The notes under the pieces: generated by a model
What the model saw: only the letters and a program-made list of their open reading frames with translations
What the model was told of the DNA's origin: nothing
Databases searched by the model: none
Origin: Moniliella sp. 'wahieum'
Lineage: Eukaryota; Basidiomycota; Moniliellomycetes; Moniliellales; Moniliellaceae
Length of the DNA: 64,000 nucleotides
Assembly: GCA_003971905.1 (NCBI GenBank)
Contig: RSEE01000050.1
Span: forward strand, 430,143-494,142
Direction of reading: 5' to 3'
Program-made: the position numbers and the translations under genes
Shown here: piece by piece, positions 11,045 through 49,924 of the stretch
Position numbering within the stretch: the first letter of the stretch is position 1
Layout: each line of letters starts with the position of its first letter

Positions 11045-11950
11045 GGTCCAAATGCAGGAACTTGGAATGTGGGAGGAGAGGTGCTCTAGGGGGTTGGTGG
11101 TAAACCGTCAGAGCAAGGGGGGGCGCTCTTCCTTAAGTTATACAAAGGTCTCATTTTCTGCTTAAGATAGGCTGTTTTACTAGTACATATTATTGTGCTG
11201 AGTAATAACAGGGTTTGGGGAAAATAAGGTGGGATTCAGCTGTGTGGGGGCCGAGCCTGTGTGGGGGTTCTATCGGACTGGCGCGTGAACGTGATCGTGC
11301 GACCGTGCATATGTCCAATCGGCAGCAGTATCAGCGCAAGCGCCTGTCCGATTTTGCGGGGAGCAATCCTCTTCGATGGGCTCAGCGCCGAGTCATTATA
11401 TGAACGGTTGGAGGAGAGAAAATGTGCACGAGTGCAAGAGGGCAAGAGGGAAAGAGTACGAGGGGTGCAAGTGCAACGGCCGACGGACGGGTCTACGTGA
11501 AAGAGACGGTGTCACATGTCATTAAATTGCTGACTATTCCCCCACCAAAAGCGGCTTGCCTCTCTGTGTAATAGGAATCGATCTCAGCATTATATCATGC
11601 CAATCACATTTGCCCTCCGGCCTCTCCCTTTTGGGTTGGGAGGGCCAGGGCGAGCGCTGGCGAGCCTCAAAAAACGTCAACACATCTAAGACAGTAAGAC
11701 AATACAACTTTGTGGTGGCCGATGACCGGTGACCGGTGACTAGTGACTTTCGAATGAACGTTCATTGAACGTTGAACGTGTTAAACGCGAATATATAGGA
11801 AAGGCAGCTTCTTGGTCCGACTTGGGGCATGCTGCGATTTCTCTCTCTTCAGTCGATGAGGCCAGTAAGGCCCAAGGCTTAAGGCCTTTAAGGCCCGGCC
11901 GAGCTCGGCGATCAGGTTGATCTCTAATATCCCGCGCATGGGGCGCGCGC
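11045..11950. other. Intergenic region with heptamer arrays
   Basis: About 0.9 kb with no gene supported. It holds the three-unit mixed array at 11725-11745, an AACGTTG pair at 11768-11781 and AAGGCC/TTAAGG words at 11870-11900. Confidence 0.5.
11725..11781. repeat. Heptamer arrays, mixed ACCGGTG/ACTAGTG, then AACGTTG
   Basis: ACCGGTG occurs at 11725-11731 and 11732-11738, then ACTAGTG at 11739-11745 with no loss of 7-bp phase. A second array, AACGTTG then AACGTGT, lies at 11768-11781. Confidence 0.75.
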
Positions 11951-12785
11951 ATGCAGTGCTGCACGTATTATATGGCGTTCCCAAATGCCCAGCTTTCACA
12001 GTCCAACAGCAAAGCCGACTTGAACACCACCGTTTTTCTTTTGGGGCTCTGTGGACTCTTATTTTTGTTGTTGGGTCCCCAGAGAGCCCTATTGTCGTGG
12101 TCCAGAGGCCTTGTGAGATTCAGGAACCCCCAACCACTGCCGCCCGAGATGACAATCTTCACCCGCTCAGGCCGGGTGGAAGGCCGGCAGAGACGACGTG
12201 CCTCTCTCCCATTGTGTGGGGTATTATGACAAGAAAAGCTGCTCCAGAAGCTGGACGATGCCGATGGTCGCCATGTGGTTGAGCACAGCAACCCGCTGAG
12301 CCACACTTGGCTCTCCTCCATTCCATCCGCTCCGTGCCTCCGGCTCTCTGACAAGCAGGTTGAGGTCGGCTTCCAGCTCCACAAGCTGTGCCGCGCTTGC
12401 ACTCCACCCAGGCCAAGTTTGGTGCGTTGCATGAGGCAGTCCGGGAGCCCATTCTCCAGCTCGTGCGCTCTATCCCCGACACCCACGTCCACAAGGAACC
12501 TACTGTGGAGGAAGAGGATGGAACGAGGCGCGAGCGGAGGGCACTGTGCGCACTGACTTCCGCGTGATAGGGCCTGGAGCAATCGGGGGATCAGGAATGG
12601 AGATGGACCACACGCTGCGCGACACGGGATCGCAGGAGGCGCAGAGCGCGTACCGGAGGGTGGTGCATGCGAGCACCGCGACGCCTTTGGAACGCCGGGA
12701 GAAGAAGCTGCTTCGCCCGCTGACAAGAACGCCAAGGACCAAGGACCAGGGACGCACTCAAGAGACGTTTCCCCCCTGGTTTTGA
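11951..12785 (+). CDS. Unrecognised protein with an N-terminal hydrophobic segment (frame-broken)
   Basis: Reading from ATG 11951 gives a hydrophobic segment (VFLLGLCGLLFLLLG) at about residues 29-43, then a basic stretch. After one TGA the same frame continues as QEKLLQKLDDADGRHVVEHS. Further protein-like blocks follow in neighbouring frames: FGALHEAVREPILQLVRSIP, then SGMEMDHTLRDTGSQEAQSA, ending at 12785. Codon use in these blocks resembles the conserved genes. A minus-strand reading of 12230-12380 (LNHMATIGIVQLLEQLF) is also plausible, so strand is not certain. No family recognised. Confidence 0.35.
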
Positions 12786-13573
12786 CGGTGCAATGATACT
12801 ACGGCACCAAGACGCGGGCAAGATGCTCGCGCTGTGGAATGATTCGACTACTGACTCTCAATGGAATGGTTCCTCTCTCAGATGTCTATCACGTTCATCC
12901 GTGTCCACACGCGCTACCGTGGGTATGGGAACGGATGCGGGGAGGGTCATGATATCATGGCGATTCCCCTGGCTCCTTAACAGGGGTAGCGCTACCAGGC
13001 AACACACGCAAGATGAACAGGTCTTCGGTTTAGGTGTAGTGTTTCCCTGTCCCAGCCTTTTTAAGCTCTGTCAATGATATGGATAAGATACCTTTCTGAT
13101 GTCCTACCGTTGCTGGAGGGTAATGCTAGGATCCCCCCCTGCACAGCTCTCAGTTGTGCCAATTGGCGACGCTCGCCTAACTAACCGCGGCGGAAGAGTT
13201 CCGCTTCCAGGCTGCACACCCAATGCTCGTTCCATCACCCTCCTCTTTCTCTTCTGTCTCCTCCCCTTCGGACGTTGCTTGAAGACGTGTGGCCCCAATT
13301 TTTTGCTTTCACGACTTGTCTCTGCTTTGCAGTTGATTCATGGGATCGTCGAGTGCTCCCAAGTCGCACTCTAGCAAAAAAAGTGTCTCTGGTTTTCATC
13401 AACCAGTATAGTTGCAAAGGTGAGATGGACAGGTGAGAATACAAAAGGCACCGAATAAAGGTGCGATACAGGGAGAAAACAGGCAAAGATCGATGAGCAT
13501 AATATAGAGTGCTGTGACTTTTGAGCAGAAAATGGCCCACGTCCCTACCAGTCAACCTCCAATCAAAGCCTGT
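12786..13573. other. Intergenic region with one copy of the ~120-bp dispersed repeat
   Basis: About 0.8 kb between an unknown gene and the 3' end of the APSES factor gene. Apart from the dispersed repeat at 12958-13082 nothing is recognised. Confidence 0.5.
12958..13082 (+). repeat. Dispersed repeat R1, copy 1
   Basis: Shares ordered landmarks with 24433-24552 and 38770-38893: TGGCGATTCCCCTGG, a variable middle, GCAAGATGAAC, CCCAGCCTTTTTAAG and CTGTCAATGATATG. All three copies lie on the plus strand. There is no coding potential or terminal inverted repeat that I can see. Confidence 0.6.
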
Positions 13574-16301
13574 TCAAGATCCGACAGGCGAGGTGGTCTG
13601 ACTGGGGATGGGGTTAGCGGGGTCGGGGAAGGGTTTGGCCAAGTTCATAAACCCAGCCACCCGGCCCAAGTCAACCGAAGGACCATCGGACTCGACCGCA
13701 ACAACCAAATCGTCCAGCATATCCTCCACCCGCGCTTCATCCACGTTACAGCACCGCGCCATGCGCGACGACATTGTTCCACATGGGCGGCCGCCTGGGA
13801 GGCGATGGATTCCGACTTAGCGTTCCACTGGGAAGCTTGTTGTTGCAGCGCAGTAGCAAGCCAGCGCAAGCGGACCAAGTCCGCCTCCGCATCCGTCTCC
13901 ATCGGACTGGAAGATAGGTGAGGCTGGAGAAACAAGTCCCAAGGTTGATTGGCTTTGGTACGATCCGCCTCGAGCGCGTCGAGCTCACCTTGCTCATCGG
14001 GCGGCAACGAAGAGCCAGGGTCCGGCGCCGAAAGAGAAGAAATAATTTGATCCACATGGGCTACGGTATGCTTGGCTTGGTCAATCTCACTAGCGGCTTG
14101 TTGTGCTTCGGCCAGTTGTTGTCGTCGAGTGGAAAGAGCACGGGTAGAGACTTGGAGCGCTGCCTGCGCCTTAGCCAATGCCGCGTGTTTGTTGTTCATC
14201 TCTTCGGCATGGAGTGTCCTGAGGTCCTGGAGTACTGCATGGATGCCTGGATCACGTCGCAGTTAGCCTCAGGCCCCAAACACAGAAGGAAAAAAGAGAA
14301 AACAGACCGTTCATCGCATCTTGGTCCTTGACCAGTGGGCTGGAAGAAGCACTCGCCTCCTGACGCGACTGCCACGTTGGGGACATCTAAGCCAGCTCCT
14401 ACTCCCCAGTCTGCTGGACGAATACCGAGGTGATTGGGAATATCCTGGCGAGCTCCACACTCGACCAACATTCGGATCATACCTGCGTTCCCAATTCGAG
14501 AAACAATGCCCAGTGCCGTTTCGCCATCCTCATCCTGCGCGTTCAGCAGTTCATGCGCCTTGGCCGGGGAAAACACGGGCTCGAATTGGCTGTCGGGGTC
14601 GGTCGCGCCAGGGCGTTGGGGGAAGAGAACGTCAAGCACCGAGGCGAGATAATATCGTGCCGAAGCTGTCCGTCCCCGTAAGGCAGCCACCATGGCAATG
14701 TGATGAAGAATGGAGCGGCGTTATAGTCACGTGTCGCCATTGACTCGCCCAGCAAGCTCATAATGACAGGAAACACGTTCGCCTCAAACCCATTCGTTAC
14801 TAGGACAGCACGGTGAAGTGCTGTTTCTCCCGCAAAATTGCCCGCTTGCACGTTTGCGCCTCCTTGATGGGGGGCAGAGCCACTAGCATCTTGACCAAGC
14901 CAACTTGGCCCAATGCTGCCGCCCAATGGAGCGGAGCGTGGCCATGGTCGTCAATCATAATGTTCACGCTTACCGCTGGTACGGAGACGGAGGGCCCCGC
15001 GGCCTGAGCCAGTACAGCTGACATGCGAGCTAAGTGGGCTTGCAATTGGGTTGTATATGCAGCCAATTGGCTGTTCGGGTCAGTTTCGGCATTGGAATCG
15101 AGAAAGACATTTGTCAAGGCATCCTTCAAAGCCCGTTCCTGCGCCTCGTCTGCCCCCGCCGAGAGGAATGCCTGAGGGCGGTCGGCAAAGCGAGCAGTGG
15201 GGTCATGCGCCAAGGCTTCGGGGGGACCGAGAATCATCCTGGCACTCTTGCCCATCCGGAGTGCAGCAGCCCCGGCGCTGTCCGAGGGCGCGAAGGCGGC
15301 AGTGCGAAGCAGACCCCTTCGGGGCCAAGCGTATTGAGATCCCGTACCGGCTCAAGCCCAGCCAATATGTCCGAAGCCCCGCCCTCCCCGCTGCTTCCAA
15401 GAGATCCCGCACGAGCACTCAACGGGGCAGGACCCGGCGGCGAAGTCGATGGTTCGAATCGTGGCCGCTTGTGCTGGATGGTTTGAAGGCGGGCACAGAG
15501 GAGGAAACGAGGAACCTGGGTTGGTGCAGTGGAAGCAGTGCTGGTTTCGGGAGGGGCAAAGGCTGGGGGAGGGGGAGGATAGCCCGGTTGCTGGTGCGGC
15601 AGAGTGAAAACTCTATGAGGGCGGCTGCCGCCGCCGCTGCGGCAACGGCGGCAGCGGTGACTGCCGGTGCCGATCCGTTGCTGAGAGGAGGTGGAGGGGC
15701 GTTGGCAGGCAAGCGGTTCACGCTCTGTTGCGAGGGCGCATTCGGATTGGGTCGCTTGCCCTTGGGGGCGACAGTGAGTGTGCCGTCCGAGGCAGGGTCG
15801 AATTCCAAGAGCGTTTTGAGTAGGTGAGCGACATTGAACTGGGCTGCCAACTGGATGCCGCGAGGAAGCGGGACCCATGTACCCTGGTACTTTCCGTACC
15901 CACCCTGCACCTTCTCGTGTTCGCCGGTGAGGATGACCTTGTCGAGCACCTTTGTCCGCCGCGTCTTGCTCACCCCAGCGACCTTGAGGATCTGGGTCGC
16001 ATTCAGGTAGCCATCCTCTCTCCTCCGCATGCACGCAATGCCGCGGACGGTGAGCTCGTACACGGGCACACCAGAGTAGGTCGCCAGATAGATGCGTGCG
16101 GGCGCGGCGATGGGGGTGGCGCGCCGCGGGCCCCAGGCGGCAGCATGGAGATGGCGGTGTGGAGGTGGCAGCGGCAGTGGGTGGGGCAACTGCCAGGCCA
16201 GGCATCGAGGGCGGCGGGAGGGGGCTGGGCGGCACAGGCGACGGCGTGGGCGCACTGCCGGCCGAGGGCGTCGGAGCAGACGCGGGCGATGCAGCGTCCA
16301 T
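13574..16301 (-). CDS. MBP1: APSES-domain transcription factor with ankyrin repeats (Mbp1/Swi4/Res type)
   Basis: DNA-binding subunit of an MBF/SBF-like G1/S regulator acting in the nucleus. An ATG at 16301 (MDAASPASAP...) opens a Pro/Ala-rich leader. The APSES/KilA-N domain follows at about 16085-15800 (YSGVPVYELTVRGIACMRR, DGYLNATQILKVAGVSKTRR, GTWVPLPRGIQLAAQF). A linker with a poly-Ala run precedes ankyrin-type repeats (APLHWAAALGQVGLVKMLVA, GETALHRAVLV, GETALGIVSRIGNAGMIRML). Next come a Gln/Ala-rich coiled coil (about 14200-13850) and the typical C-end VEDMLDDLVVAVESDGPSVD and RVAGFMNL, stop at 13574. At least five frame breaks. The start is uncertain because the leader and the APSES domain are in different frames. 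The upstream ACGCGT boxes match the motif this family binds. Confidence 0.9.
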
Positions 16302-16474
16302 GGGGATCACGCCCGGGGCACGGCACGGCAGGCGCACAGCAGACGGAGCAGCAGCTGCGGTCGTGGCCGGGGGAGCAGGAGCCTTACCGGTTAGCCGGTT
16401 AGGCTGCAGCGCCTGCCCGCCCTGTGGAGCTGCGCTGCCAGGGGCTGCGATGCAGGAACGCGCTGCACAAGACG

Positions 16475-16577
16475 ACGCGTCACGCGTCACAGCCCCGCCC
16501 CGCCAGCGCCAGTGTCGCCGCCCCGCCCCCTCCTTACCTCAGCCGCAGCGCCCGGTCCGGCTCACGCGTCACGCGTC
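16475..16577. repeat. Two tandem ACGCGTC pairs (MCB-like)
   Basis: In-phase ACGCGTC heptamers lie at 16475-16481/16482-16488 and 16564-16570/16571-16577. They fit both the general heptamer rule (TCA+CGCG) and the MCB consensus. Confidence 0.7.
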
Positions 16578-16666
16578 CCGCAACTTAAATAACGTGGTGT
16601 ACTTAGAGTGCCGGGCCATTTCAAATTTGCCTTTCAAATTTCACGTGTGGGGTATCCTGCAAATGG

Positions 16667-16687
16667 AACATTGAACATTGAACACGG
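16667..16687. repeat. Heptamer array, AACATTG (decayed AACGTTG)
   Basis: Three 7-bp units in phase: AACATTG at 16667-16673 and 16674-16680, AACACGG at 16681-16687. The palindromic core AACGTT would be restored by one A-to-G change, compatible with a CpG transition. Confidence 0.45.
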
Positions 16688-16885
16688 AGTTTTTGTTATC
16701 CGGCGTGGCTTCGCCGTGCTGGCCGCCGTTGGCTGCTCAACAATAGTGCACGAAGAATGGCGTGCTAAGAGTAAAAATAACTGCACTCGCCCAATGGGCG
16801 CCTCAACCCCTCACCACTGCCGGCTTGGGTGGCTCTTCTTCTCCCCCCACCCCCACCCCCTTCGGAGCTCCTTAGGGCCCTCGCC

Positions 16886-20563: not shown

Positions 20564-21369
20564 GTTCCGCCGCCTATGTTGTTTCTCCCCCGGAATACGA
20601 TGGGCCAATAGATGGTTTGTGCTCGGAGACCCGCATTCCCAAAGTCCAATGTATTAGGAATGAAGGTGTGCCGCTATTGACTTCGCAGAGCAGTTGTAGT
20701 AGAAGTGCATATTCAGGTCATCATGACAATTGATAAAATCATACTGAAAAGTGCACGCTTGAACCTACCTCCTATGGGCCCGTTCCATCTGCATTTCCTT
20801 TCCTTGTGCTATCGCTATGCTTCCCGCGGCCCGGGTTCCCACAAAGGACGTCTTCTGTCCGGTATCACTTGTACCAGCGCGCCACCCAACGATACCAGAC
20901 TCATCTTCCAATTACTGAGTCCACCATTGTTAGCTCCACCGTCAAGACGATGGTCAAAGAGATTATTGCTGGTCGCCACGGACCCTAGCTCCACTCTTCA
21001 CTCTTACTCACTTGCTTGCCGTCATGCAACTCACCTATGCCCCCTTGGTAACAACGGCTTCATTTACACAGTGTGCTTCCTCTTTGGTCTATAATGGGCC
21101 GCGCCTTGTCTAGCCCTTGGCGGGCCAATGGAACTGGGTCAGGCTGCGCCGCTGCAGCGGCCAAACGCAAGAACCTTCCAAATTTGTCTCCTTGGCCCCA
21201 CCTGTAGCAATCCGCCTTTGACACATTCCCTCATGAATCAGTGATCTCTCTCAGCTGTCTCTCCCAGTCTTCCCTGCCCTTCTGACTTGGCTGGATGGGT
21301 GCAATGCATCTCATGTAGGGGAAAGGTTTGGGAGCGGAGGAAATGGGGAGCAGAGGGGAGGGAAGGGCG
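20564..21369. other. Convergent intergenic region
   Basis: About 0.8 kb between the sulfite reductase 3' end and the stop of the small minus-strand gene. No gene, repeat or RNA recognised. Confidence 0.4.
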
Positions 21370-23835: not shown

Positions 23836-24432
23836 GGCGATATGAGCAAAAGGAGTACGATGACGGGGTCGAAGGGAAGGCGAGAGAGAACGAGAGCAGG
23901 GGGATGCGTGCGAGATGTGCTGATGGGAAGTGCCCTTGGACAGGGTCGAGCCGGAGTGTTATATATATTCTCCACATCCGGCGCGCGGCCTCCGGATCGC
24001 CGGGGCTACTTGGGCGCACCTGTGACACCAGGTCACATGACCGGGCTCTTCTCGGCCTTTCGGTGCCCGCGCTCCGCCGTTGGCACCTCGACGGAGAGCC
24101 ACGGCGGTCAGGCCTAAGGAGCGGCAAATGCAACCCCGCTCACCGTTCAAATTTCAAAGCGCATGCGCGTGTGCGCTCATGGCTCATGCTCATGCCCTCG
24201 CGGACGATGCCTGGCGACTCGGTCTGAGATCTGAGTAGCCTAGCCATTATTCCCCCGGACGCGTAGCCTTGCTGCCGGCGACCCTCTGACACATCTCGAG
24301 CGGCCGCGCCATGACCTGCATGACCGGTAAATGTGCCCTGCCGGTGTTGAGTGAGTAGCTGGTGAATCTGCACGCGGATTTCACTATTCGACGACCCCTC
24401 TCTGCATCCATATCGTTTACAGAGCTTATATC

Positions 24433-24552: not shown

Positions 24553-24726
24553 AATTCAAAAAGCAGTGGGACAAAAAGAGGCGCTGTTTTGTCTATAATA
24601 ACCACCAGCTCTCGCTCTCAATACAGTGTGTCCGGCGTTTGGACTGCTTTTGTTCGTGCCAAACCAATAGGGATAGAGCCTCAGCCTGAGGCCTGAGAGG
24701 AGATATGGCCAAGAGAAGAAGGGTTT

Positions 24727-24743
24727 AGGCCTTAGGCCTTAGG
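24727..24743. repeat. Heptamer array, AGGCCTT
   Basis: AGGCCTT twice in phase plus a partial third. A related AGGCCTG/CTGAGG cluster lies just upstream (24679-24700). Confidence 0.65.
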
Positions 24744-25969: not shown

Positions 25970-26142
25970 ACAGAGATGTTGGAACTCTCCTATATCCCCG
26001 ACCTCTAACCTCACTTCATTCTCTTCCCTCCTGTATAATTGAGTTGTTGTGACGTACCCCGCATATTGCGCTTGAAGCTCTTGAAGCTTTTGATGCATAC
26101 CATCCCACACTATCTTCGTATCGCCGACATCCGCGCCATCAC

Positions 26143-26191
26143 ACTAGTCACTAGTTACTAGAGTTGCTATTAGCTTCAAGCTTTAAGCTTC
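26143..26191. repeat. Heptamer arrays, ACTAGTC/ACTAGTT/ACTAGAG and TAGCTTC/AAGCTTT/AAGCTTC
   Basis: Three in-phase units at 26143-26163 and three at 26171-26191. The spacer base varies between C and T while the palindromic core is kept. Confidence 0.7.
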
Positions 26192-26343
26192 ACTGCCATC
26201 AGCACGGCCAACTTCAAGCTTCGCCTCCATCTTCTCATTAAATTAGCCATTCTAAGCTCCAGTCCACTTCCCGTCGCCCGCACAGTCCCTACAGCAGTCA
26301 CATGTCACACAGACACCAGATGCAACGCGTAACTCCGCTCACA

Positions 26344-26371
26344 ACGCGTAACGCGTAACTAGTCACGCGAG
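26344..26371. repeat. Mixed heptamer array, ACGCGTA x2, ACTAGTC, ACGCGAG
   Basis: Four units at 26344-26350, 26351-26357, 26358-26364 and 26365-26371. The core changes from ACGCGT to ACTAGT and back without a phase slip. Confidence 0.75.
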
Positions 26372-27269
26372 TCACGAGAAACTCCGCCCGGTGATCAACT
26401 CGATTAACATAGTAACATTCGATTGGGTCACACGCGCGTATGCCCCCAACTCCCCGACGTGTGTTCCCACGATGCTCGGAAGTGGCGTGTATAATGGCAT
26501 CGTGACAAAACGTGACATGTGAGTGACATGAAACAAAATGTCACATTCGCCATCACATGCAAGCCACCTTGCGTGTGCGTCCCCCAGCACATCACAGCGA
26601 TCAGTCACTATAGTCATCTCACCGTCACCAGGCCACACCCGGTTTACGGAGACCATGAATATTGAATGCGGGAGAGCAGATGAGATCGGACGGGCGGAGT
26701 AAAGAGTGATTAGTTACGAGTATAGCCATTAGTAGCCGGTATGTAACGGGTATAACCGATCATTATTGCGGCAACTATAGCTTCTACTCATCGGTCCTCG
26801 ATCTACACGCAGCGTTCCTTTGTCCCTACTGTTTGGAGTGCTGCAAATTATATGTGTTCCTGTGGTATGTAGCTCTGTCCGAATGTCTCCGTGACTCTTG
26901 CAATCCTGTTGCCTTCAAGCACCATGCGCCGCGTGCCTCTCCATGCGTTGCAGCATCTCGATCCGATCTGCTTGAACCTTTGGGATGTGTGTGCTTTGGT
27001 GTGAGGCGGGTTATCGATTTCTTCAGGTGGTCAGGCTGAGCGCCTGAGCCATGAGCACATGACTTGAGGCTAACGCGCTAATCAAAGCGTTAGCGGTGGA
27101 CAGAAACGGATGAAGTTCTGGTGGGTGGTCGGAGGGTAGAGGTAGAGGCATGCAACACGTACATGCATCATGTATCACAGCTTTCTTCCTGCCTATATTC
27201 CTGCGCGTCAAGCTATTAATAGCGAAACCTGGTCAACTTGCTATCATAGCCACCTAGTCGACCCTATTC

Positions 27270-27334
27270 ACCGGTCACCGGCCGGCTGTCGCTCTCAGAT
27301 TTCATATCTCAGATCTCATATCTCACATCTCATT
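27270..27334. repeat. Heptamer arrays, ACCGGTC pair and a six-unit TCTCANA series
   Basis: ACCGGTC then ACCGGCC at 27270-27283. At 27293-27334 six consecutive 7-mers keep TCTCA or TTTCA at fixed phase (TCTCAGA, TTTCATA, TCTCAGA, TCTCATA, TCTCACA, TCTCATT). Confidence 0.75.
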
Positions 27335-27476
27335 AACTTCTTTGAACACGCCGTTTCACAGCAGGAAGCCGCAAGGCCCTAGATCGATAGATCCCACATG
27401 ATTAATGCATGATCAATGATGTTAATGATGCCTCTGTTCCATTCCCACCACCAGACCTTTTCTTAAAAGCCTTTTT

Positions 27477-27624
27477 AGATCTTAGATCTTAGATCCTTAG
27501 ACCATCAACGCCATGGCGCCTTTTAAATGTTTAACGTTTAACGTTTAATCCGTGTGGTATATCACACATCATTCATCACACATTGGTCGTCACATATCAC
27601 ATGTCACATGTCGCACGTCACACT
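27477..27624. repeat. Heptamer arrays, AGATCTT, AACGTTT and TCACATG
   Basis: AGATCTT twice at 27477-27490; AACGTTT twice at 27533-27546. A five-unit series at 27590-27624 reads TCACATA, TCACATG twice, TCGCACG, TCACACT. Confidence 0.75.
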
Positions 27625-28560
27625 TTGCGGCACCCTGGTCACCCGTCACCGATGAGAGCTTAGTTAGCGCTGAGGCGCTGAGGCTCGCACATGGATCACA
27701 CATTCTTTGTCACCCGTTGCCCGTAGACGTGGGCACCAACACCGTCCGAGCGACGGTCAAGCCCTCGGGCCTCAGATCCTGAGACCCCGCCCGGACATGG
27801 CGACACGTTCCGATGAACGAACGCTGAACATGTTGAACTTGCTCAACGTGCGGGCAAAAGCGTCATCGATCGTCTGAGGCTCAGGCCCGAGGCACCCTAC
27901 CGATCTCGATCAGACTAGGCACCAGCCCCAGAAGCTTCCAAAAGTTGCTGCCAGCCGATAATCCACCACACAGCCACCAGCTGCACACGTCCTCTCGGCG
28001 CGGCAAAACCCAACAACCAATCCTCATCCCAACCAACGTCAACATCCAACCCCGAAGTTCCCCTCCCCCCCCTGGATCTGTCAATTTTGCTTCCCACCCC
28101 GTCCTGAGCTTCTCACTTCATTTCCTCCTCTCTCCCCGGCCTCTGTCATCAATAGGCGCCTCTCACAATTTGGACCCCTCTCATCATCCCAAGCCCGTCG
28201 GACACCATTGACCTCTTTCCTCTCACCCCTTCTGGCTTTGATCCCTACTGCCTCACCCCCCCTCTCCGACACTACTGGGAGCTGGGGTCAGCTTCAAAAG
28301 CCATCGCCCATCCTTTTTGTTCTCTGGTCAAGCTCTCAATCCTCCTTCGCGGAACGTCGCTCTTCAATCACCTGGTCCTTGGGAGCGTCCCTGCTCCTGT
28401 ACTTTGGTACCATTCGAGTTCCCAACCCCTCGTTACCTATCTAGCGTTACCACATTCTTCCTACTCTTGGCGACCACTCTGCTAGTCACGATCCGCACCT
28501 CATCATCCTTCCCCTCAACCACTTCATCTCCGACTTCCCTCACCATCACCTTCCAAGACC

Positions 28561-30789
28561 ATGCATTCGCACCCCGGAACTCCGGACGATGTCCGACGCA
28601 GCAGCCCCCTTTATTCGCCTCGCCTCATCGGATCTGCTCCTATCACGACGATTTCCTGCCCAACGTTGTCACCCACCCCCCGGCCTCTGGCCCCTCGCCT
28701 CGTCAAGGGCCCAGTTTCCCCCCGCCTCCTCTACCCCGAGCGGAGTCCCGCTCGGAACCTTCCGCCCTACGCGCAAAGGCAAGGCGACCACGACCTCCGC
28801 TTCCACTCGCTCAGGGAGAGGGCAAAGCGTAGCGAAAGCATGCACGAATTGCAAGCGTAGTCATTTAGCCTGCGATCTGGCCGTACGTGATCCCTCTGTT
28901 TGCTTTTATTGTTCACAGTGGTGGGGACTAACATGATGCATGATGCCTCTTTAGCGTCCGTGCCGACGATGTTGATGCTCGACAAGGCAGAGACTTGTGT
29001 GGATGTGCAACATAAAAAGCGCGGGCGGCCCCAAAGTAAGTATACGCTAACGAGCCATATGATGGATCCCGCCTCATTATTGGCTTCTGAGGGTCAGTCC
29101 GATGGGCGTCCTTCGCAGGCCCTCGGTGGGACGGCAGGTGGGCGTGGCACTATCAGCGGTCATGGGGGTGGCGGCGACAGCGGCAGTAGTTTCCCCCCGA
29201 CCACGTCCACCGGCCTCACCTACGGCGTGCCGCATGACGCGCTTCAGCCACGTAGTAGGCCTGCACCGTTGCCATTTCCGCCGGCCATCCCTCCCCTCCC
29301 CCAGTTGGGATGCCGACGTCGAGTCCAACCACCCTCCCTACCAACCTACTCCGCCGCGCTTTTCCAGCCGCTGCCCGAACCCCAGTGGGATCGTCCTGCT
29401 CCTTTCCCTGCTGGCGATCCACCGTATTTCCCCATGGGCGAGAGTCCCTCGCGCCACTTCTTGGCCCATCGTCCTTCGGAACCGACGTTGCGTCGGTCTT
29501 GGACAGCGGCAAGCCGCGGTACAAGCCGTGGTTCCTGGACACGAGACGTACCCTCTCCCTATGCCCGGCACTTGGGCCACGCTCGCACCCCGAGTACCGA
29601 CCCGCCTCCTCTTCGTTCGGTACCCCCACCGGCCCAGGGACGTTCCCTTGTTCCCCTTGACCATCTCGTATCGGTACGCCACCGCAGTGTGCCCAATCCG
29701 TGGCACAGCGAGTCTCGGCCTCCTTCGGCCGCCTCGCCCCTTGCACGGCCACGATTAGGTTCGGACGTTTCACCTCCCGTACGGCCGGGCATGGAGCCAC
29801 GCACGTACCTGCCCCCGGGGGCGTTTCGACCGTTAGACTGCCCCCCCGGCACCTGCCCCCGCGCGGCGCGAGGAACGTGGTGGGCGACGAGCCAGTGCCG
29901 ATCGTCTTTCCGATCCAACCAGGCCGAAGTCGCCGAGGTCGCCTCTCGACTGGGCACTGTCTTGCCTTCTTACCGTGCTCCTGGACGGGGCCTTAGCCCA
30001 CCACCTTCTTACTACCCGGGCACCTCGACCTCCCATCCCGTGTTTGGTGCTGGGCCCCATGTCTCGCAGGACCGTGTAGCGGGGTCCGCGACGGATGTGC
30101 CCAGTCCACCGTCTCGGTCCATCTCCCAAGCTGGCCTTAGCGCGGGGGCGGGGGGGCAGGGGTACGATGACCGTTGGGAGCCCGGCGGCGTGCCCGCTGC
30201 GGTATCGTATCCAGCCTTATCCCAACCTTCTGCCGCTCCTTGTCCCGCGCACTTGGTCGGTCAGCGTAGCGCCCGGTCACCGTTGGACTGGCCGAGCGGC
30301 CGGGGGCGACGGGCGTGTCAATTGGTCTGTACCACGGAGTACGAGGTGATCCGCGTCTCGCCCCAGGCGTCGGAGCTGCTGGGCCAGGCGGAAGAAGAGC
30401 TGGTACAACGTACCCTCTGGGACTTGGTCCATGACGATGACCGCGCCGCCTTGGACCAGCTCTGTGCCCGTGTGGCCCAAGACACCTGCGGGCCACCCCA
30501 CCTTGTTGTCCTCTGATTTTTCCATCCGTCAACTTCGGGCTGCATTGGACGCTCCTTTGCCCACCTTACTGAGCCCGCAGTGGGCACGCGCGTTTGCTCG
30601 GGCCACCTCCGCATCCTCCCCGCTTCGCCACGCTCACGTGCCCCCCCACCTGCGGGGGCTTGGGCGGGGACCTGAGGTGAGCTGGAGGTGCAAGTCTACC
30701 TCGGCTGCTTCTTTGGCTTGTCCTTAGCCCAACCCCCCACGTTTTCCAAGACCTGCCTAGTTGCTACCTTGGCACGTCTTGATGCCTAA
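28561..30789 (+). CDS. Zn2Cys6 transcription factor with PAS domain (ERT1/AcuK-like)
   Basis: Nuclear DNA-binding regulator; family relatives control gluconeogenesis and mitochondrial/nonfermentable carbon use. Start MHSHPGTPDDVRRSS at 28561. The zinc cluster begins KACTNCKRSHLACDLA and is split by an intron at 28883-28954 (72 nt, GTACGT, branch CTAAC near 28930, TAG). It continues RPCRRC and, after one missing base near 28972, LDKAETCVDVQHKKRGRPQ, giving the six Cys and the basic tail. A long Pro/Ser-rich middle follows. The PAS domain is at about 30320-30500 (CTTEYEVIRVSPQASELLGQ, WDLVHDDDRAALDQLCARV). The tail ends EVQVYLGCFFGLSLAQPP...ATLARLDA-stop at 30787-30789. Several frame breaks lie at both ends. 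ERT1 assignment is from the domain pair, not a database search. Confidence 0.85.
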
Positions 30790-36025: not shown

Positions 36026-36813
36026 GGCGGGGGCAGGTGCGGGGCTAGCCGAGGGGTGGGCGGGAGGGGACTGAGGCTGGGTGGAGCGCGGGGCGATGGG
36101 CAGGACGGCCGAGAAGCGAGGCACGGCGTGAGGTGGCGGCGTGGGTGGGCGAGGGGGCGCGGCGGGCGGATTGGAGCTGGGTGATGGCCATGGCGCAGGG
36201 GGGGGAGGAGGGGGGCGAGGGAGGGCGCGGAGAGGCGAGTGGTGAGGGGCGAGGCAACTGGGCCTGAGGGCAGACACGCAGGTGTTGGCGTTTAGCCGGG
36301 AGCGGCTAAGCTGATGGCTGGCCTCGGCTGGCGCGTGGAGGAGGCAGGTGGTGCTGCGGGCGGAGCCAAGAGCAGCTGTGTGCACACAATCGGCCGCGGT
36401 GCGCGCCAAGTTGAACGTTCAAGCAAAGGTGAACGCCGAGCCTCGGCGCCAGCGGAGCAGCCAACGTCCAACGCCGATTGACGGTTTGGTGGATGGGCTT
36501 GCAGCTGGCGGCTGGGCGAGCTTGCGCTTAGTGCCTGGGTCCTCGGCCCTCTTGGCTAGGCACGAGGCACTCCCGAATTGCCCGGCACTTGCTCCCCGCC
36601 ACGCGCACCCGCCCCGTAGTGCACCAGTGACTAGGGTCTCCGCCCACCACCCTGCTCTCTCAGATCTCAACCTCCCCGCGCTCCTCCCAATTGTGCCTTG
36701 ATCCAGTCCCTGCCAGTCCCTGCCCACGCCCTCCAGTGGCCATCGGCCGGCGGCCATCTACGCGCCACGCCCTGCCACGCCGCCCCCATCACCATCACCC
36801 CATGCCCCATGTC

Positions 36814-36867
36814 ACATGTCACATGCCACGGTCGCCCTCACGCGTCACGCGTCACGCGTCACGTGCC
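36814..36867. repeat. Heptamer arrays, ACATGTC/ACATGCC and ACGCGTC x3/ACGTGCC
   Basis: ACATGTC then ACATGCC at 36814-36827. At 36840-36867 ACGCGTC occurs three times then ACGTGCC, all in phase. Lies about 800 bp upstream of the kinase start. Confidence 0.75.
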
Positions 36868-37690
36868 ATCCCATCACCCTCTGCGCCGCCCTTTACTCTC
36901 CGATTCAGACTGAGCTACCGGCATGCTACCCACTCCTGGTTGCAGGCTACGTGGTACCGGCTGCTGCTTGCTGGCTACCGGTTCCCCCGGTTACCAGCTA
37001 CCCTCCCGCAGCACACACCCTGTGCCGATTGCACCAATATCCACCACCTTCTCCTATCCACGATCCCGCCTTTGTGGCGCCGTCTCATCGATCAACAAGT
37101 CCATGCCAGGCCGCGACAGGCAGACAGAGGCCGCCCTAGGCCGTCACGCTGTTCATTCCAGCTGCGTCCCACACACAACTGCCCACCGGATGTCCCACAC
37201 CAGCGGGCACCAGCACACACCAGCCCACACCCAGCCCCCCGCCGCAAAATTCCTGCCGTCGATCTTGGCCGCAGACGGCCCTGCCAGTACAGTCCCCGTG
37301 TTGGCCCGTTCCAATTTCAAAGGCTAGCAGTTGCGATGTCAAACGTTCAAAGTTAGCGTGCCCACGCTGAGCGATCGCTGATCGATGAGATGCAACAGGT
37401 AAAAGAAGAAGCGAGGATCTAGCCACAGGGCCAGTATAGGTTGGTCGTGTTGGTCTTCAGCTGCCCGCTCCGTCCTTCGGCCATGTCCGCAAAAGTCAGC
37501 ATAATCGCCACCATCCCTCCGCCCCCATCTTCCACCACCACCCACCCACTTTGCCCTCAAGACTCAGGGACCTAACTCAGTACTCACTCCTCCTTGGCCA
37601 CTACCCAAGACCACCGGCCAACGAGCCTAGACCCACTACCCATATACCACTTGACCATTTCTCTTTGGCTGATGCCTCCAGTCGGGCCTC

Positions 37691-37871
37691 AGTACTCAGT
37701 CTGAGTACTGAGACTCAGTATGCATCTGTTTTCTCCCCATTCTGTCTGCGCTGCATCCGCACAAGCCTGCAGGCCCGATTTGAGACTTCTCCACGTTCAA
37801 CACATTCAACACGCAATGCGCGTACATTGAACATACTGAGCATTACACTGAGTACTGAGTACTGAGTCGTG
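37691..37871. repeat. Heptamer arrays, AGTACTG/AGTACTC
   Basis: AGTACTC and AGTACTG units mixed with 6-bp spacers at 37691-37723. AGTACTG twice then AGTCGTG in phase at 37851-37871. Confidence 0.65.
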
Positions 37872-38769
37872 AGTTCTTATTAGTGGTCCAACAGAGGATG
37901 TTGGAAGGCAGGTATTGATCTCGTTAAGGTACACCTTTTCCCCCAAATATGAGCTAAGCCGCTGGTAATGGTGGTACGCGCGAGCTCCTAGAGAGCAGCT
38001 TCGACGCCCCACTGAGCACTGAAGGCTGGAGCCGGTGGGAATCGAGTGGGTCTGCAAGATGGATTGAGCCAACTCACAGTCTGAGCGCTCAGGAAAAGGT
38101 TTATCAGCGAAGAATCCACCCTTGCAGTCAGGAATCCGGGAGGCCTCTCATGATCTCATCGTCGATGTCATCAGCTGCATCAACCAGAGAGGGAGAATGC
38201 GGGAGACTATGCGTTTTCGCCCTTCTGCTACAGCTTCTGCCCAACGTGCGTGCTGAGACTTATTGCCGCGTCGCGCGTCAAGCGGCAAGCTTCAAGTGAG
38301 ACGCCTCCGCTGCTTTCCTAATGTAGCCTCTGTTCTTGCTCTGGTTGCGAGGGTTGTGTCTCACTTCTGCTTCTACTCCTCTCGCTTCTCGCCGCTGTGT
38401 TTTTGTCCCTCTTTTCTGCTCTGGGCATGCTCCGCTAATATGCCCATTTCCTAGTCAGTTGCGGACACCGGAGCGGCCATGCAGGTTCCACGTTGCACAC
38501 GAAGACATATACTACCTCAGGCTTCAGCCGCTCACTGTTAACATGTAACACACTAGCTCGGACGCCGGCCCCTTTTATCACTCAGGAAAGCGTCGCGGCA
38601 ATTCGGCACTGGCTTGGATTGTTTATACCGCCTTTTATGCCGAGTGGATCTGTTGGGACTTTGAGGGGTGTAGCTCCGTTCCTGAAACACTGTGTGGTAT
38701 ACAAGTTGGTATACCTTAACATGCATAATCTCCCTCAAGCAGGTGGCGCGCAAGACGGTCACAGGTTTG

Positions 38770-41860: not shown

Positions 41861-42272
41861 GAGTACTGCGTACGTTGTGTACAGAGTATATATCAGAGAA
41901 CATTTTTGCTACAGCGGCTACTGGGTAGTGACGTCCTGGTCCACCCGGCTATGAAGACCGCAATGCAATGGCTCTCAAGCGTAGGAGAGTAGGCGATCGA
42001 TTGCGGGCGGGATATAGGCGTTGGTTCGTGGGAAGCAGGACGAGGGCTACAGGAGAAGGCCACTACTGGTCGTTGGCTTGCTTACGCGCTTACGCGGGTA
42101 CGCGCGCATCATGCATCTGCATCAGCAGTCTTCGCAGCCCGCGGTGCCACGGTGCTAGTGAGCTAGTGAGGCTTGAGGCCGGCAGTGCGCCGCGATCGGT
42201 GAAGCCAGTCACCGTCGCAACAACGGGCTTGCTTCTCTGATGTTGTGCACCCAGTCTTGGATACGAGTAGTA

Positions 42273-42293
42273 ACTAGTAACTAGTAACTAGGA
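42273..42293. repeat. Heptamer array, ACTAGTA
   Basis: ACTAGTA at 42273-42279 and 42280-42286, then ACTAGGA at 42287-42293. Confidence 0.7.
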
Positions 42294-42518
42294 AAAGGGG
42301 AAACACTGTTGTGAGCCTGAGGCCTGAGGCTCAGGGCCTGTAACCCTGAGGGTGACCGGTGACCATCCTGCTTCCGTGGCCTCAGGCAGGGGCTCCTCAG
42401 GCCTCACATGCCTCTTCCAGCCTGGGCAATCCTACTCTTCATATCTCAGAAGGCAAAAAGAAGCCCCAAGCAAACTGCCTGTGATGATCTCTATCTAGAT
42501 CATGCAATGTTCGATAAT

Positions 42519-42545
42519 TAAGCTTGAAGCTTTAAGCTTAAGCTT
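42519..42545. repeat. Heptamer array, AAGCTTG/AAGCTTT/AAGCTT/AAGCTTT
   Basis: Four AAGCTT cores in a row. The spacer base varies (G, T) and is absent once, giving a single 6-bp unit. Confidence 0.65.
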
Positions 42546-42931: not shown

Positions 42932-42959
42932 ACATGTCACATGTCACGTGTCACCCTGC
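42932..42959. repeat. Heptamer array, ACATGTC x2, ACGTGTC, ACCCTGC
   Basis: Four in-phase units with progressive loss of the palindrome toward the right. Confidence 0.7.
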
Positions 42960-43418
42960 GGGCGCCGTCGTTCCGATCCTCAAATTGGCTCGAACGAGAT
43001 CACATGAGTGCATCGGTCTTGTGCGAGCCCAAGCCATCAGATGTATCGACCGACAGCATGTCGGAGCGCTCGGAAGACAGCCACAAACCTTATTGTGCGA
43101 ACAGGATATGCGTGCCGGCGTTGTTAATTGTTGGGGGTCCCTTTGGCACTTCCGGGTACTGCGGGGTACTGCCTCTTCTTCCTCTTCAGCGAAGGGTGTG
43201 GCATGTGATGCATGTGATTGGATAGCACAACACAAGCGCCAAGCCTCTCTATTAGTCTCTACCACACAAAACGCCTTCGAGAGCGCCCGCGGGTACACAA
43301 TAAAAAGGGTTACAAACATTGGATACCTGCCACTCCGGCTATTTAACTGATTGCCTCTGTCATGCATGTCCCTGTCCCCATATCCCCTTCTTCAGATCTT
43401 TCTTCAGACTTCACGTTG

Positions 43419-43521
43419 AAGCTTCAAACTTCAAGCTTCCCTTATTTCTTCTCTCGCTTTGCCTCACATGCTCACACCACTTCGACCCATCTCGATCGTC
43501 ATCGATCATCGATCATCTTCC
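43419..43521. repeat. Heptamer arrays, AAGCTTC/AAACTTC/AAGCTTC and ATCGATC x2/ATCTTCC
   Basis: Three in-phase units at 43419-43439 and three at 43501-43521, just downstream of the Mtr4 stop. Confidence 0.7.
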
Positions 43522-43661
43522 TGAATCGTGATACACCGTGTGAACGGCACTTAGCACTTAGTGCCCAGTACTCGGCACGATCATTTGTATCCACTTCGCA
43601 TCGGTTGTAGACAAGCAATTAACGTCTCTGGGAAAAATGAATTGCCACGATGGGGAGGAGC

Positions 43662-46600: not shown

Positions 46601-47244
46601 ATACGAGAACCGACTCGTTCCTCTGGATACAGTACACGGAAGTTTGTTGGAATGGGTCAAGCGTGAAGGGGTACACCTTGGCTGGCTCCTTGGGGGGCAC
46701 ATGGGCGGCAAGAGGGGTGTAGGCTACCCCGGCTGGGACCGCGACTTGGTGCCGTACCGAGTGGCGCAGCTGCACTTTGCCGGCAGCCTTTCCCTCTCCA
46801 GTAGTAAGTGTGGTAGCCTCGGTACTATCGGGGGTGGAAAGAGGGGGGGCGGTGGATCCAGCTGCTGCGCCCGAAGCGGCCGAAGCAGCAGCAATGTTTT
46901 GGATCGATTCGGCAGTGAAGTCGTCGGTCACCGTGATTGCTGCGTTTTCGGGTGCCTCAGCTTCCATCCCTTGGGCGCCATCGTCGACATTGCGTTTGTT
47001 CTCGGCAATGACAGCATCGTCGACCTTTTTTTCGGCTTCTAATGCCGCTTGGACGGGGGGGGAGAGCGCCATCGTCGCCCTCGTCAGACTGACCATCGTC
47101 AGAGCTGTCGCGACGGGCTGATTTGGAGGGAAGGCTGTCGTCCGGCTCCTGGGATGCGGGACGTTTTCCCTTCGCGCTGGACGAGGGCGGTACCTCGGCC
47201 GGTTTAGGCGGCGCGGAGAAGTCGAAGAGCTCGTCGGGATCCAT
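43662..47244 (-). CDS. MTR4: Mtr4/Dob1 exosome-associated RNA helicase (Ski2-like)
   Basis: Nuclear DExH helicase of the TRAMP complex that feeds RNAs to the exosome. Start [17 protein letters not shown] at 47244, an acidic disordered N-region, then the helicase core: [20 protein letters not shown], motif [23 protein letters not shown], and [20 protein letters not shown]. An intron at 46322-46388 (67 nt, GTACGT...CAG) precedes [37 protein letters not shown], the RecA2 block ([40 protein letters not shown]) and motif [17 protein letters not shown]. The arch/KOW region and the helical C-end ([20 protein letters not shown]) follow, stop at 43662. At least six frame breaks, e.g. one C missing at about 45423 just before motif VI. 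Length fits Mtr4 (about 1,100-1,180 residues). Confidence 0.95.
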
Positions 47245-48130
47245 GCCGGAGATGGTGAAGGGAAAAAAAGGCCACGGCGTTGTACTTGAGAGCAATGTGT
47301 TCGGTCAAGCTCAAATTTGTCTGTCATTCCGCGCCGGCTTGCATTCCGCTCGCCCTCTCCGCACTGCAGCTGACATAAGTATTGAAGGAGTGCCGCATCA
47401 GGTGCATCACGTGATGAGGCTCACATGTCCCGTCCAAGGACATGGAAAGGCGGCAATTGGCTTGGTCCTCTTCTTCTACGCAAGTTCCAGCTAGGCAGAA
47501 ACACCCCGTTCCATTCCCCACCATCTCTGTAGCCGATTGCTTGGAATCATCTTTAACTCTCAACATCCTGTTAGTAAGTTGTGGTCGGCCATGCGGCCGA
47601 ACGGAGTGTTAAGCAAATTTGACTTGTGTCCAGCTTGAGACGCTATATGGATGAAGGGTGGGTGCCCTCGCGAGGACAGAGAGTTGACGATTGCGCTGAG
47701 AGACGCAATCGCAAAATTTGCTTTTGCCAATGCGGTTCTTGGTATCACACCCGATACATAGCCTATCTCGTCTATAGATGTACCAATCGCATGAAGTAGC
47801 ATGCACTCGGCGATCCGCTCAGCGTTTGAGTACATATACCGATCAAGATGGGCTTTATGTGCATGTTGCACGTGTCCAAAAATGAGCTTCAAACAGACGC
47901 GATACGAGCAGAGCTACCAAACTAGTACATTATCAAAAGACAGAGAAGAAAGGCAGCCTGGCAAGCACGCCCAAACAAATGAGACCAGGTCGGACCGATA
48001 GCGATAAGGTGGAAACGAAGGGGTCAGCCTTCCTGGCCGAAAAAGGAGGCTTGATAATGATGTCCGTGAGGTGGATTCGCCCTCTGATGAAAAAGATATA
48101 GCGGCGAAAGGAAATAAGAACCAAGGGTCT
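47245..48130. other. Intergenic region
   Basis: About 0.9 kb upstream of MTR4 and downstream of the membrane-protein gene. No gene, RNA or array recognised. Confidence 0.4.
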
Positions 48131-49445
48131 TCAGGTATGGGCGATGACTGATGGCTCAGCTCGTCTCTGGAGTGTCCCCGGTGGATTCTGCCCTGCCATT
48201 TGGCGATTGATTGGGGCCAACTCGTCCTCTTCCCACAATGGCAGCTCGGGGTAGGCACGCTTGACGTTGTACTCGGCGCCCATGGCCATGAGACAAATAA
48301 AAGGGTTGGTGACAAGTGCAAGAATGCCACCGTAGGTGCACTTGATCGCTGGGCCGACCCAGGTGTGGGCCATTTGGTGGCCAGTCCAGATGGGCGCGAC
48401 AATGCATAGGGAAATGCCCCAGAAAGGGGCCCAGACCACCAGCGCCGAAATGCCAAGGCCCTGAACAATGGTCCAAAGGAAACGCTGACAGCGCTGACCA
48501 AAGCTGACGGAAGGTGCAAGGATATCGTTGCGCTCGGTACCACAGAAGATGAAGCGAACGAACCAAAGGCAAAATGCTTTGAACCAGCCCGTTTCGGAGG
48601 TGACAAGTGGGCCCATGGGAGGGTCTGTCCCGCCGGCACCTGGGAGGGCAAGCGGGTGCCCAGGAACTTGGTGCCTTGGGGCTGGGAGTGGAAGGAAGAT
48701 GCAACAAATAGGCCAAGGCCGGCTCAGAGGAGCCACCACACCCTTATACACGTCACGATGGACCATGGTGGAGGTAGATGACATAGGTGACAGTGCCCTG
48801 AATGAGGATGGTAACTGCCATGTCACCGGCAATTGTGTTGTCTTTGAGTTTCCACATAGTGATGTTGTTATCTGAGTTTTTACGATACATGGCGCAGGCG
48901 ATCCCTCCAAAGTTGGCACCGGCCGAGATGAAGACGGCACCAATGATGTGAAAGATAAGCAAGTACCAACCTTGGGGTGTGGAGGCTCAGCGGTCCAGGG
49001 ATGCGCCACATCTGCCACCAGGAGGGCTTGACTGGGTTAATGGTGCCACTGTCGGGGAAGGGCGCGCCAAAGGCAAGCTTCTTGCCTTTGAGGCCATACT
49101 CTTCAGGTCGCTTGGGCACACCACGGCGGGGAACACCCTCGTCAAAGACGGGATGTGGGGGCTGCTGCTGTTTCTCTACATCTGAGGCGGCAGCACTGGG
49201 AGAGGTTGGCGCCGAGGGCAGAGGGGCGGCCAAGGTAGGCTGGGGCGTGTTGTTGGAGGCGCTATTTGGAGGTGGGACCTGCAACGTTGGCTTGGGCGGG
49301 GTGGGATCAACGAGGGTGGCGGCGCCCTCGGAGGCGCGCGGTGGGGGGGCGTGGGCGTCGGGGCGCCGGAGCGGGCGTCGACAAAGACGTCGTTGGCGGA
49401 TGACGAGCGGGACGACGGGCGGGTGTCCATGTCAGGCGCCGTCAT
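48131..49445 (-). CDS. Multi-pass membrane protein of unknown function
   Basis: Start MTAPDMDTRPSSRSSSANDV at 49445, then a long Pro/Ser-rich cytosolic region ending KRPEEYGLKGKKLAFGAPFP and INPVKPSWWQMWRIPG. Membrane segments follow: LLIFHIIGAVFISAGANFGG, a loop with YRKNSDNNITMWKLKDNTIA, DMAVTILIQGTVTYVIYL, later WFKAFCLWFVRFIFC, GISALVVWAPFWGISLCIVA and YGGILALVTNPFICLMAMG. The tail is acidic (LPLWEEDELAP), with a stop at 48131. At least three frame breaks. The arrangement recalls a fungal-specific membrane family listed as DUF2456, but I recall that from memory and could not check it. No catalytic motif visible. Confidence 0.75.
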
Positions 49446-49924
49446 GGCAGCGCAGGGAGGGGGTGGTGGTGGTGAAGCGCAGGAAAAATCAGACGCTTGT
49501 CGCTTGGAGCTTGCTGTCGCACCAGGTGACCACAGTAGCCTGGTGCGGCTCAGCGTAATGAACGTGGTCGTCTGGTACGTGCCCACAGTGCGTAGCGTAG
49601 CCACAACCTGAACGAACCTACGCTGTGATGTGCAGGATGCATGATGCATGATGTTTGTCTGAGCGATCTGAGCAGCAAAAGCCCTCCGCCCGTCGATGAT
49701 CGCAATGACCAATCGATCGTCCCATGATGTATGATGCATGATGCATGATGCATGAATCAACAATTAATCAGCTTTCATTATTTGTGCCTGGCCGATCCGT
49801 CGGGGTGCTTGACGCGTCACGTGTCCGTGACATTTGAAAGGGCCAGCTGTCGACGGCGTACGTAAGTCCGCGTGGCGCACTCCGCTCGCTCTGGTCGGTA
49901 CACTCAGGCGGCCTGCACGTCCCT
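49446..49924. other. Divergent intergenic region with ATGCATG heptamers
   Basis: Promoter region between the membrane-protein gene and the dynactin-like gene. It carries ATGCATG twice plus ATGTTTG at 49637-49657, and a longer ATGCATG series at 49727-49761. Confidence 0.5.
49637..49761. repeat. Heptamer arrays, ATGCATG
   Basis: First array 49637-49657 (three units). Second array 49727-49761 (ATGTATG, ATGCATG three times, AATCAAC), five 7-bp units in phase. Confidence 0.75.

Follow-up and report, generated by a model that had tools for sequence, protein, structure and literature searches.

Palindromes made by copying and inverting the bases beside TNA trinucleotides in the genome of Moniliella sp. 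'wahieum'

The non-coding DNA of the basidiomycete Moniliella sp. 'wahieum' carries short modules in which two copies of a trinucleotide TNA enclose a palindromic tetramer (P), and this palindrome is made by copying and inverting the two bases beside TNA; it is not selected. The product, and its dependence on TNA and on the flank, obey one rule: TNAZW becomes TNAZW·W'Z'·TNAZW, or the mirror image of this, on either strand (XY and ZW being the left and right flanks of TNA, Y'X' and W'Z' their reverse complements). The modules were followed up from a window of 64,000 bp (contig RSEE01000050.1, here C50, positions 430143-494142; assembly GCA_003971905.1, 69.5 Mb in 223 contigs), in which a preliminary description had reported tandem heptamers built from TNA and a palindromic tetramer. 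This observation is confirmed and is broader than first noted. Its best explanation is a micro-insertion process that is site-specific for TNA and acts mostly outside long open reading frames (ORFs), and it points to an undescribed, very regular way of breaking and rejoining DNA. The product of this mutational process is regular enough for sequence alone to reveal its rule: the site is TNA, the length 7 bp and the content the inverted flank. The evidence is drawn from one genome and two allelic pairs.

The TNA-P-TNA module

The window contains 45 exact arrays with a period of seven and two or more copies. In 28 of these, the unit is a palindrome of the form ANNNNT plus one base, a form shown by 2.7% of random 7-mers, which establishes that the palindrome-cored heptamers are real. 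They had been placed between positions 11725 and 49761; 25 of the 28 do lie there, but the pattern also occurs outside, for example at 646-662 and 7196-7212, and on other contigs. When the lag was varied, 260, 94, 56, 45, 10 and 9 exact arrays of at least two copies were counted in the window at lags 4, 5, 6, 7, 8 and 9, respectively, and 0-1 at lags 10-15; arrays of at least three copies were seen at lags 7 (seven), 6 (three) and 4 (two) and at no other. The overall identity in the window was 0.2765 at lag 7 versus 0.2606 at lag 8 and 0.2604 at lag 10, with the codon lags 6 (0.2895) and 9 (0.2869) above lag 7.

Module counts were made on a 264-kb sample consisting of the window and 20 stretches of 10 kb from 20 contigs. 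A module was defined as TNA-P-TNA, in which P is a 4-bp palindrome with a dinucleotide matching a flank, and block shuffles were used as the null. When all 64 trinucleotides were counted, 207 TNA modules were found versus 1.5 in shuffles, an excess which bears out the preliminary claim. The other 60 trinucleotides combined gave 165 modules versus 48 in shuffles; 56 of the 165 overlap TNA modules in other registers, including those of the next-ranking ATG, CAT and GAT, and the remaining 109 are thinly spread, with at most seven per trinucleotide. The single module is the basic unit, since 179 of the 230 arrays with any spacer base and any flank contain one.

As the palindrome is the inverted flank dinucleotide, all 16 palindromic tetramers occur. 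The restriction to 11 of them, originally reported, does not hold: the supposedly missing AATT, ATAT, GCGC, TATA and TTAA are present in 5, 2, 7, 3 and 4 equal-spacer modules of the sample, respectively (0.3-1.3 in shuffles), with two AATT and one ATAT in the window. Genome-wide, two-unit tandem patterns of GCGC and of TTAA gave 89 matches each and the three-unit GATC pattern 67 matches per strand, versus 0 for the reversed patterns (overlapping matches counted throughout). It is therefore the rule that is shared and not the sequence, as had been proposed: with 16 palindromes and only TNA in common, the arrays are not a single repeat family, nor are they an ordinary microsatellite.

The geometry of the module was examined by varying spacer length, palindrome length and end pair. 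By far the strongest excess was the one already given, corresponding to spacer 1, half-length 2 and the ends T..A. Among the weaker excesses is that of spacer 3 and half-length 1, perhaps a reading of the same arrays in another register; palindromes of half-length three are rare (3 versus 0.2 in shuffles). Furthermore, of 381 five-base repeats formed by TNA and two adjoining bases, 268 have their copies separated by the predicted inverted dinucleotide (left and right counts summed; 6% expected by chance). The same gap test, applied to seven of the 15 other end pairs, gave 4/130 for ANT, 7/165 for CNG, 4/236 for GNC, 2/86 for TNT, 4/165 for ANA, 19/224 for GNA and 14/177 for TNC. Of 237 flank-matched modules, 207 have the same spacer base in their two TNA copies; TNA is therefore repeated directly and not inverted. 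Use of the flanks, relative to expectation from local composition, ranges from 0.15 to 1.65, and is lowest for AT (0.15), TA (0.16), TT (0.43), GC (0.50), GT and AA (0.55).

Rule-obeying arrays number 142 in the sample, 21 of them lying wholly inside stop-to-stop ORFs of at least 200 codons; these ORFs span 146,482 of the 264,000 bases, their length being a mere proxy for coding.

Comparison of alleles

When positions 26000-28000 of the window were used as a query, a second copy was found on the minus strand of contig C2 with 89% identity, and C2:835000-874999 aligns to window positions 14160-52340 in five blocks of 81-96% identity. A second allelic pair is formed by C1:200001-206963 and C25:597000-604136, and both pairs together comprise 45,740 aligned columns with 1,504 substitutions. 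As the haplotypes are unmerged at both loci tested (C50/C2 and C1/C25), the assembly size and the gene counts may be nearly doubled.

With 16 indels each at 5 and 6 bp, 34 at 7 bp and 8 at 8 bp, the size distribution of the allelic indels declines smoothly save at 7 bp. In 19 of the 34 seven-bp indels, the long allele contains an exact TNA-P-TNA module; the indels of at least 4 bp among which these 19 fall number 132 in all, and the modules put palindromes into non-coding DNA. Six of the 19 events are located within or adjoining existing units; in the other 13, the short allele shows no neighbouring unit. For these 13, the short allele shows a plain TNA with the same flank in 11 cases and a one-base variant of TNA in two (window positions 28940 and 38322). 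The palindrome is an inverted copy of the flank in 13 out of 13 (right flank in seven, left in four, both in two), for which the chance probability is about 1e-12, or about 8e-11 for the 11 plain-TNA events at the same per-event chance. Direct repeats of at least 5 bp are present in 12 of the 13, and one of 3 bp in the remaining event, in which the spacer differs. The alleles CT-TCA-TT and CT-TCA-TTAA-TCA-TT, GC-TCA-CT and GC-TCA-GCGC-TCA-CT, and GT-TAA-TG and GT-TAA-ACGT-TAA-TG are examples.

Among the 36 rule-obeying arrays in the aligned part of the window, 17 are identical in the other allele, which implies that many arrays are shared by descent, and 19 differ in some way.

Growth of the arrays

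The rule predicts at most two kinds of palindrome per array, with copies of the left flank followed by copies of the right flank. Repeated action at one site would build XY-TNA-(Y'X'XY-TNA)a-(ZWW'Z'-TNA)b-ZW, which is the form of most mixed arrays: of the 12 arrays with different palindromes, nine are exactly in the predicted left/right order, and in each of the other three one flank is one base off. The 21-bp allelic difference at window positions 37151-37157 likewise consists of three modules at one TCA, namely ACGT, which copies the left flank GT, followed by two that copy the right flank TT: TTAA and, with one base off, TTAG. Among the two-module arrays, 8 of 40 are mixed, versus the 25% which, by our own reckoning, are expected if the second event falls at random over two TNA copies and two sides. 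Thus, repeats of the same event can explain the growth of the arrays without slippage, and some slippage can be additional. The preliminary description had supposed a growth mechanism that picks self-complementary cores; self-complementarity is indeed central, but no selection is needed, the palindrome being produced by inversion of the flank dinucleotide.

Slippage of the ordinary kind, or an expansion of short tandem repeats primed by hairpins, would account for unit numbers that vary between alleles and for the six exact events within or next to existing units; arrays may still gain units in this way. Slippage is rejected as the origin of the arrays because the 13 other exact events have no adjacent unit in the short allele; new microsatellite units are copies of an existing repeat, a property found neither in these events nor in the 12 arrays with different units. 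Moreover, the frequency of mixed arrays is close to that predicted for independent events, and all 16 tetramers arise, only with TNA, so that slippage as the general explanation, one of those first put forward, is very improbable. The other early suggestion, a palindrome-binding factor whose sites are selected, agrees with the location of the modules mostly outside long ORFs. Such a factor would have to recognise all 16 cores, which have no common sequence beyond TNA; in addition, the alleles differ in modules at many sites and the palindrome follows the flank, and we consider this possibility to be scarcely credible. Hardly any weight can be given to an artefact of assembly or sequencing either: all the evidence comes from assembled contigs, but the pattern was seen in two allelic pairs on four contigs, and nearly half of the window arrays in the aligned part recur unchanged in the other allele.

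Two further candidates were rejected. Miniature inverted-repeat transposable elements (MITEs) would have a common terminal sequence, and the copies share only TNA, their palindromes following the local flank. For this last reason, the palindromes are not the terminal bases of many transposon families inserted at TNA with 3-bp duplications.

A possible mechanism: hairpin-capped breaks at TNA

In the mechanism that we favour, and to which we attribute about an even chance, breaks centred on TNA would end in hairpins, each cut open two bases beyond its tip before the ends are joined again, by analogy with hAT or V(D)J junctions. A break staggered by 7 nt and centred on TNA would leave XYTNAZW on both ends, like a 7-bp target-site duplication. 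Both ends would be capped by hairpins and opened two bases 3' of the tip, so that the left end would carry the 4-nt palindromic 3' overhang ZWW'Z' and the right end the overhang Y'X'XY, the 5' ends being recessed to the T of TNA. One overhang would then be kept and the other trimmed before ligation. If the left overhang is kept, XYTNA-ZWW'Z'-TNAZW would be obtained and, if the right one is kept, XYTNA-Y'X'XY-TNAZW; such retention would therefore give exactly +7 bp and exactly the two products that are observed.

The agent could be a low-copy hairpin-forming cut-and-paste transposon, leaving one footprint per jump, or a domesticated or host nuclease. Footprints of hAT-type excision carry a short direct repeat and in this respect resemble the modules. 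Two properties of footprints are indeed found here, namely the direct duplication of target bases (TNA and two flank bases are repeated, mostly with the same spacer base) and inverted P bases copied from an end, as seen in the gap test. P nucleotides of human T-cell receptor joints are mostly two bases long, and the hairpins there are opened predominantly 2 nt 3' of the tip (PMC3528771, available excerpt). In a more novel reading, to which we give somewhat less than even odds, a host-encoded, transposon-independent activity recognises TNA, makes a break whose geometry is fixed and adds a mirror-copied dinucleotide on rejoining, thereby writing 7-bp insertions and slowly rebuilding the non-coding DNA. 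Should this be true, mutation would here follow a grammar of its own, distinct from slippage, transposition and known template switching. If the breaks are hairpin-capped, this fungus would offer a natural genome-wide assay of hairpin-end repair outside V(D)J recombination. If no transposon is behind the process, it would be a new source of genome growth.

Several observations weigh against the hairpin mechanism or against the rule on which it is built. Equal-spacer modules in which neither flank matches number 36 versus 7.4 in shuffles; in 30 of them one side is a single base away from a match, which is compatible with decay, but about 64% are expected to be so by chance. Plain duplication of TNA is not prominent (TNATNA 206 versus 160, similar to other trinucleotides), and exact 7-bp duplications centred on TNA are non-palindromic in 17 cases versus 61 palindromic ones. 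As for the alleles, 15 of the 34 seven-bp indels are not exact modules: some are near misses with AAGT, GGCT, TACA or TCGG where the palindrome would stand, others are units of different repeats or unrelated differences; an exact TNA is absent from the short allele in two of the 13 events; and that the long allele is the new one, hence a gain, is inferred from two alleles compared without an outgroup. A second module is present at 34 of 142 hit sites versus four expected under uniform targeting of 10,187 TNA sites, an excess of about eightfold, smaller when coding sites are disregarded, to which site preference, local exposure or slippage must contribute. Transposon footprints are usually less uniform than the product seen here. 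A search of about 0.3 Mb of the 69.5 Mb for inverted-end elements with a 7-bp NNTNANN duplication gave none that was convincing (five hits with a 7-bp duplication, one of them NNTNANN, all chance-like), so that unexcised elements with a matching duplication were not seen, although elements without inverted ends would escape this search. Finally, searches for KDZ, hAT, PIF/Harbinger, MULE, Plavaka and Tc1/mariner transposases (models KDZ, hAT dimer, DDE_4, MULE, Plavaka and DDE_3) gave 0 matches in the assembly, the control genomes giving no match for KDZ, hAT and Plavaka. The reverse transcriptase model RVT_1 matched 71 places. DNA transposons may thus be scarce in this assembly, three of the six model searches having no responding control.

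The same product could arise from a single nick. In this scheme, the DNA would be nicked 5' of TNA and a five-base strand (flap TNAZW) displaced; the polymerase would switch onto the flap for two bases (W'Z'), and the new end would be ligated to the 5' T of the flap via a small hairpin W'Z'(TNA)ZW, with neither a double-strand break nor a transposon. The equal spacer base would be accounted for, as would the low use of the AT-only flanks AT, TA, TT and AA, which form the weakest 2-bp stems. The scheme leaves unexplained the requirement for T..A, C..G and G..C not being used, and the rarity of three-base stems; moreover, GC flanks are low too. Triloop stability calculated from DNA parameters was uninformative, the value for TNA being equal to that of the other triloops compared. 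On balance, we regard the nick as an unlikely route. A similarly low likelihood applies to a special case of the hairpin mechanism, whose share is contained in the even chance given above: one of the known cut-and-paste families that form hairpins and make 7-bp duplications, Kyakuja or hAT7, would have left the modules as footprints and would be rare or extinct in this genome. KDZ and hAT elements form hairpins on the flank. In basidiomycetes, 7-bp target-site duplications are made by Kyakuja (a KDZ family, in Agaricomycotina) and by hAT7 (in Pucciniales), and Kyakuja has no inverted ends (PMC12730594, available excerpt), so that an inverted-end search would miss such elements. A single active copy jumping repeatedly could also leave many footprints and no extra copies. 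Against these families stand the KDZ and hAT searches, with 0 matches compared with the 71 places of RVT_1 (and with no control genome matched by either model), and no insertion was seen.

Comparison with other systems

No description of the TNA/7-bp rule was found in a literature search covering titles and abstract openings among the matches listed. The hairpin-capped breaks proposed here have their closest likeness in hAT excision footprints and in V(D)J P nucleotides, where a palindromic dinucleotide is copied from an end and two bases are the dominant P length (PMC3528771, in excerpt). They differ from both in that one rigid +7 product is formed at TNA, with 142 rule-obeying arrays in 264 kb and no element seen. 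We know of no genome-wide 7-bp insertions for Kat1 of Kluyveromyces lactis. Kat1 is a domesticated hAT transposase of a fungus that makes hairpin-capped breaks (PMC4763223, as far as the excerpt goes), but its role is in mating-type switching. Galileo, of the P superfamily, mostly makes 7-bp duplications and has a palindromic target motif; however, this is a Drosophila element, and its consensus GTANTAC has ANT instead of TNA at the centre (PMC4168063, excerpt). In Fusarium mitochondria, (A)n-(T)n palindromic repeats are optional, lie between genes and have indels nearby, whereas they are mononucleotide runs, for which the available part of the source describes no TNA and no 7-bp rule (PMC7218506).

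Tandem heptamers of the TAATGCA/TAATTCA type are also found in Bacteroidales and other bacteria. A pattern scan of bacterial and archaeal genomes gave at least 119 stretches, of which 80 loci (L043-L122) were analysed. These arrays form a word family (judged by eye from 30 of the 80 loci), and the rule is not enriched in them: with TGCA left out, TNA was counted 14 times versus nine expected in the 80 loci. A description by one word or a few variants of it, suitable for the bacterial arrays, does not apply to the fungal ones with their 16 palindromes. The carriers of the TAATGCA/TAATTCA-type arrays are bacterial metagenome-assembled genomes, many of them from Bacteroidales, Prevotella and Ruminococcus, with Nitrospirae and others.

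Features of the window and other insertions

The modules and arrays located in the window are listed in Table 1. The module at 28934-28943 is flanked by ctaac and ttag, an arrangement which by eye resembles the end of an intron.

Table 1. Modules, arrays and allelic differences in the window
Position	Feature	Remarks
11723-11746	TGA(CCGG TGA)2 CTAG TGA, mixed array	right P fits right flank CT; left P's one base off left flank GA
24108-24117	TCA-GGCC-TAA; other allele plain TCA-GG	7-bp difference, right flank copied, spacer base differs
24725-24741	TTA(GGCC TTA)2	exact array
26016-26020	plain TCATT; other allele TCA-TTAA-TCA-TT	right flank copied
26168-26172	plain TA-TTA; other allele TA-TTA-TATA-TTA	left flank copied
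26349-26365	TAA-CGCG-TAA-CTAG-TCA, mixed	one base off predicted order; other allele has one CGCG unit fewer
27421-27425	plain GT-TAA; other allele GT-TAA-ACGT-TAA	left flank copied
27475-27491	TTA(GATC TTA)2	other allele has one unit fewer
28934-28943	TGA-TGCA-TGA	7 bp absent in other allele, which reads CAGGATG (differs from CATGATG by one base)
36793-36797	plain CA-TCA; other allele CA-TCA-TGCA-TCA	left flank copied
36838-36861	TCA(CGCG TCA)3	exact array
37151-37157	plain GT-TCA-TT; other allele +21 bp: TCA-ACGT-TCA-TTAA-TCA-TTAG-TCA	allele alignment
37849-37865	TGA(GTAC TGA)2	exact array
38322-38326	TGTAG, one base from TGAAG; other allele TGA-AGCT-TGA-AG	right flank copied
42271-42287	TAA(CTAG TAA)2	exact array
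42483-42489	plain GA-TGA-TC; other allele GA-TGA-TCGA-TGA-TC	allele alignment
43499-43515	TCA(TCGA TCA)2	an additional TCGA unit in other allele, spacer T
49732-49755	TGA(TGCA TGA)3	exact array

Reading frames of the window match SMC1, a Rab6/Ypt6-like GTPase, a cyclin and a DEAD helicase, and domains of the SLA1 type and of a fungal-type tRNA ligase were found elsewhere in the 264-kb sample. For a ribosomal protein L5 of the sample, the top scores were obtained with the entries uL18B and L5-A, which we take to be fission yeast proteins, and then with a Kluyveromyces protein.

Large allelic differences of other kinds were noted by eye. At window positions 42327-42344, where two of them lie that both have the look of LTR (long terminal repeat) material, the other allele is about 1 kb longer (about 866-1889 of locus L037) and contains two pieces with TG..CA bounds and 5-bp direct repeats, as judged by eye: one of about 145 bp with a tRNA-Trp-like gene (ARAGORN, L037 1776-1848), and one of about 850 bp which resembles a solo LTR. 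Another, LTR-like, is located in L009 (8731-10000, corresponding to C1:208731 onward), where an insertion-like stretch begins with TGTCACAG and has 25 further places at 87-99% identity. A reverse transcriptase domain is present at C1:211234-211683, and the C25 allele (L042) breaks off at the start of this insertion, which looks like a recent LTR retrotransposon. Sequence in common with a dispersed repeat was noted for the large differences at window positions 24428 and 42893; further ones comprise window positions 20835-21006, a 41-bp piece and a 48-bp piece.

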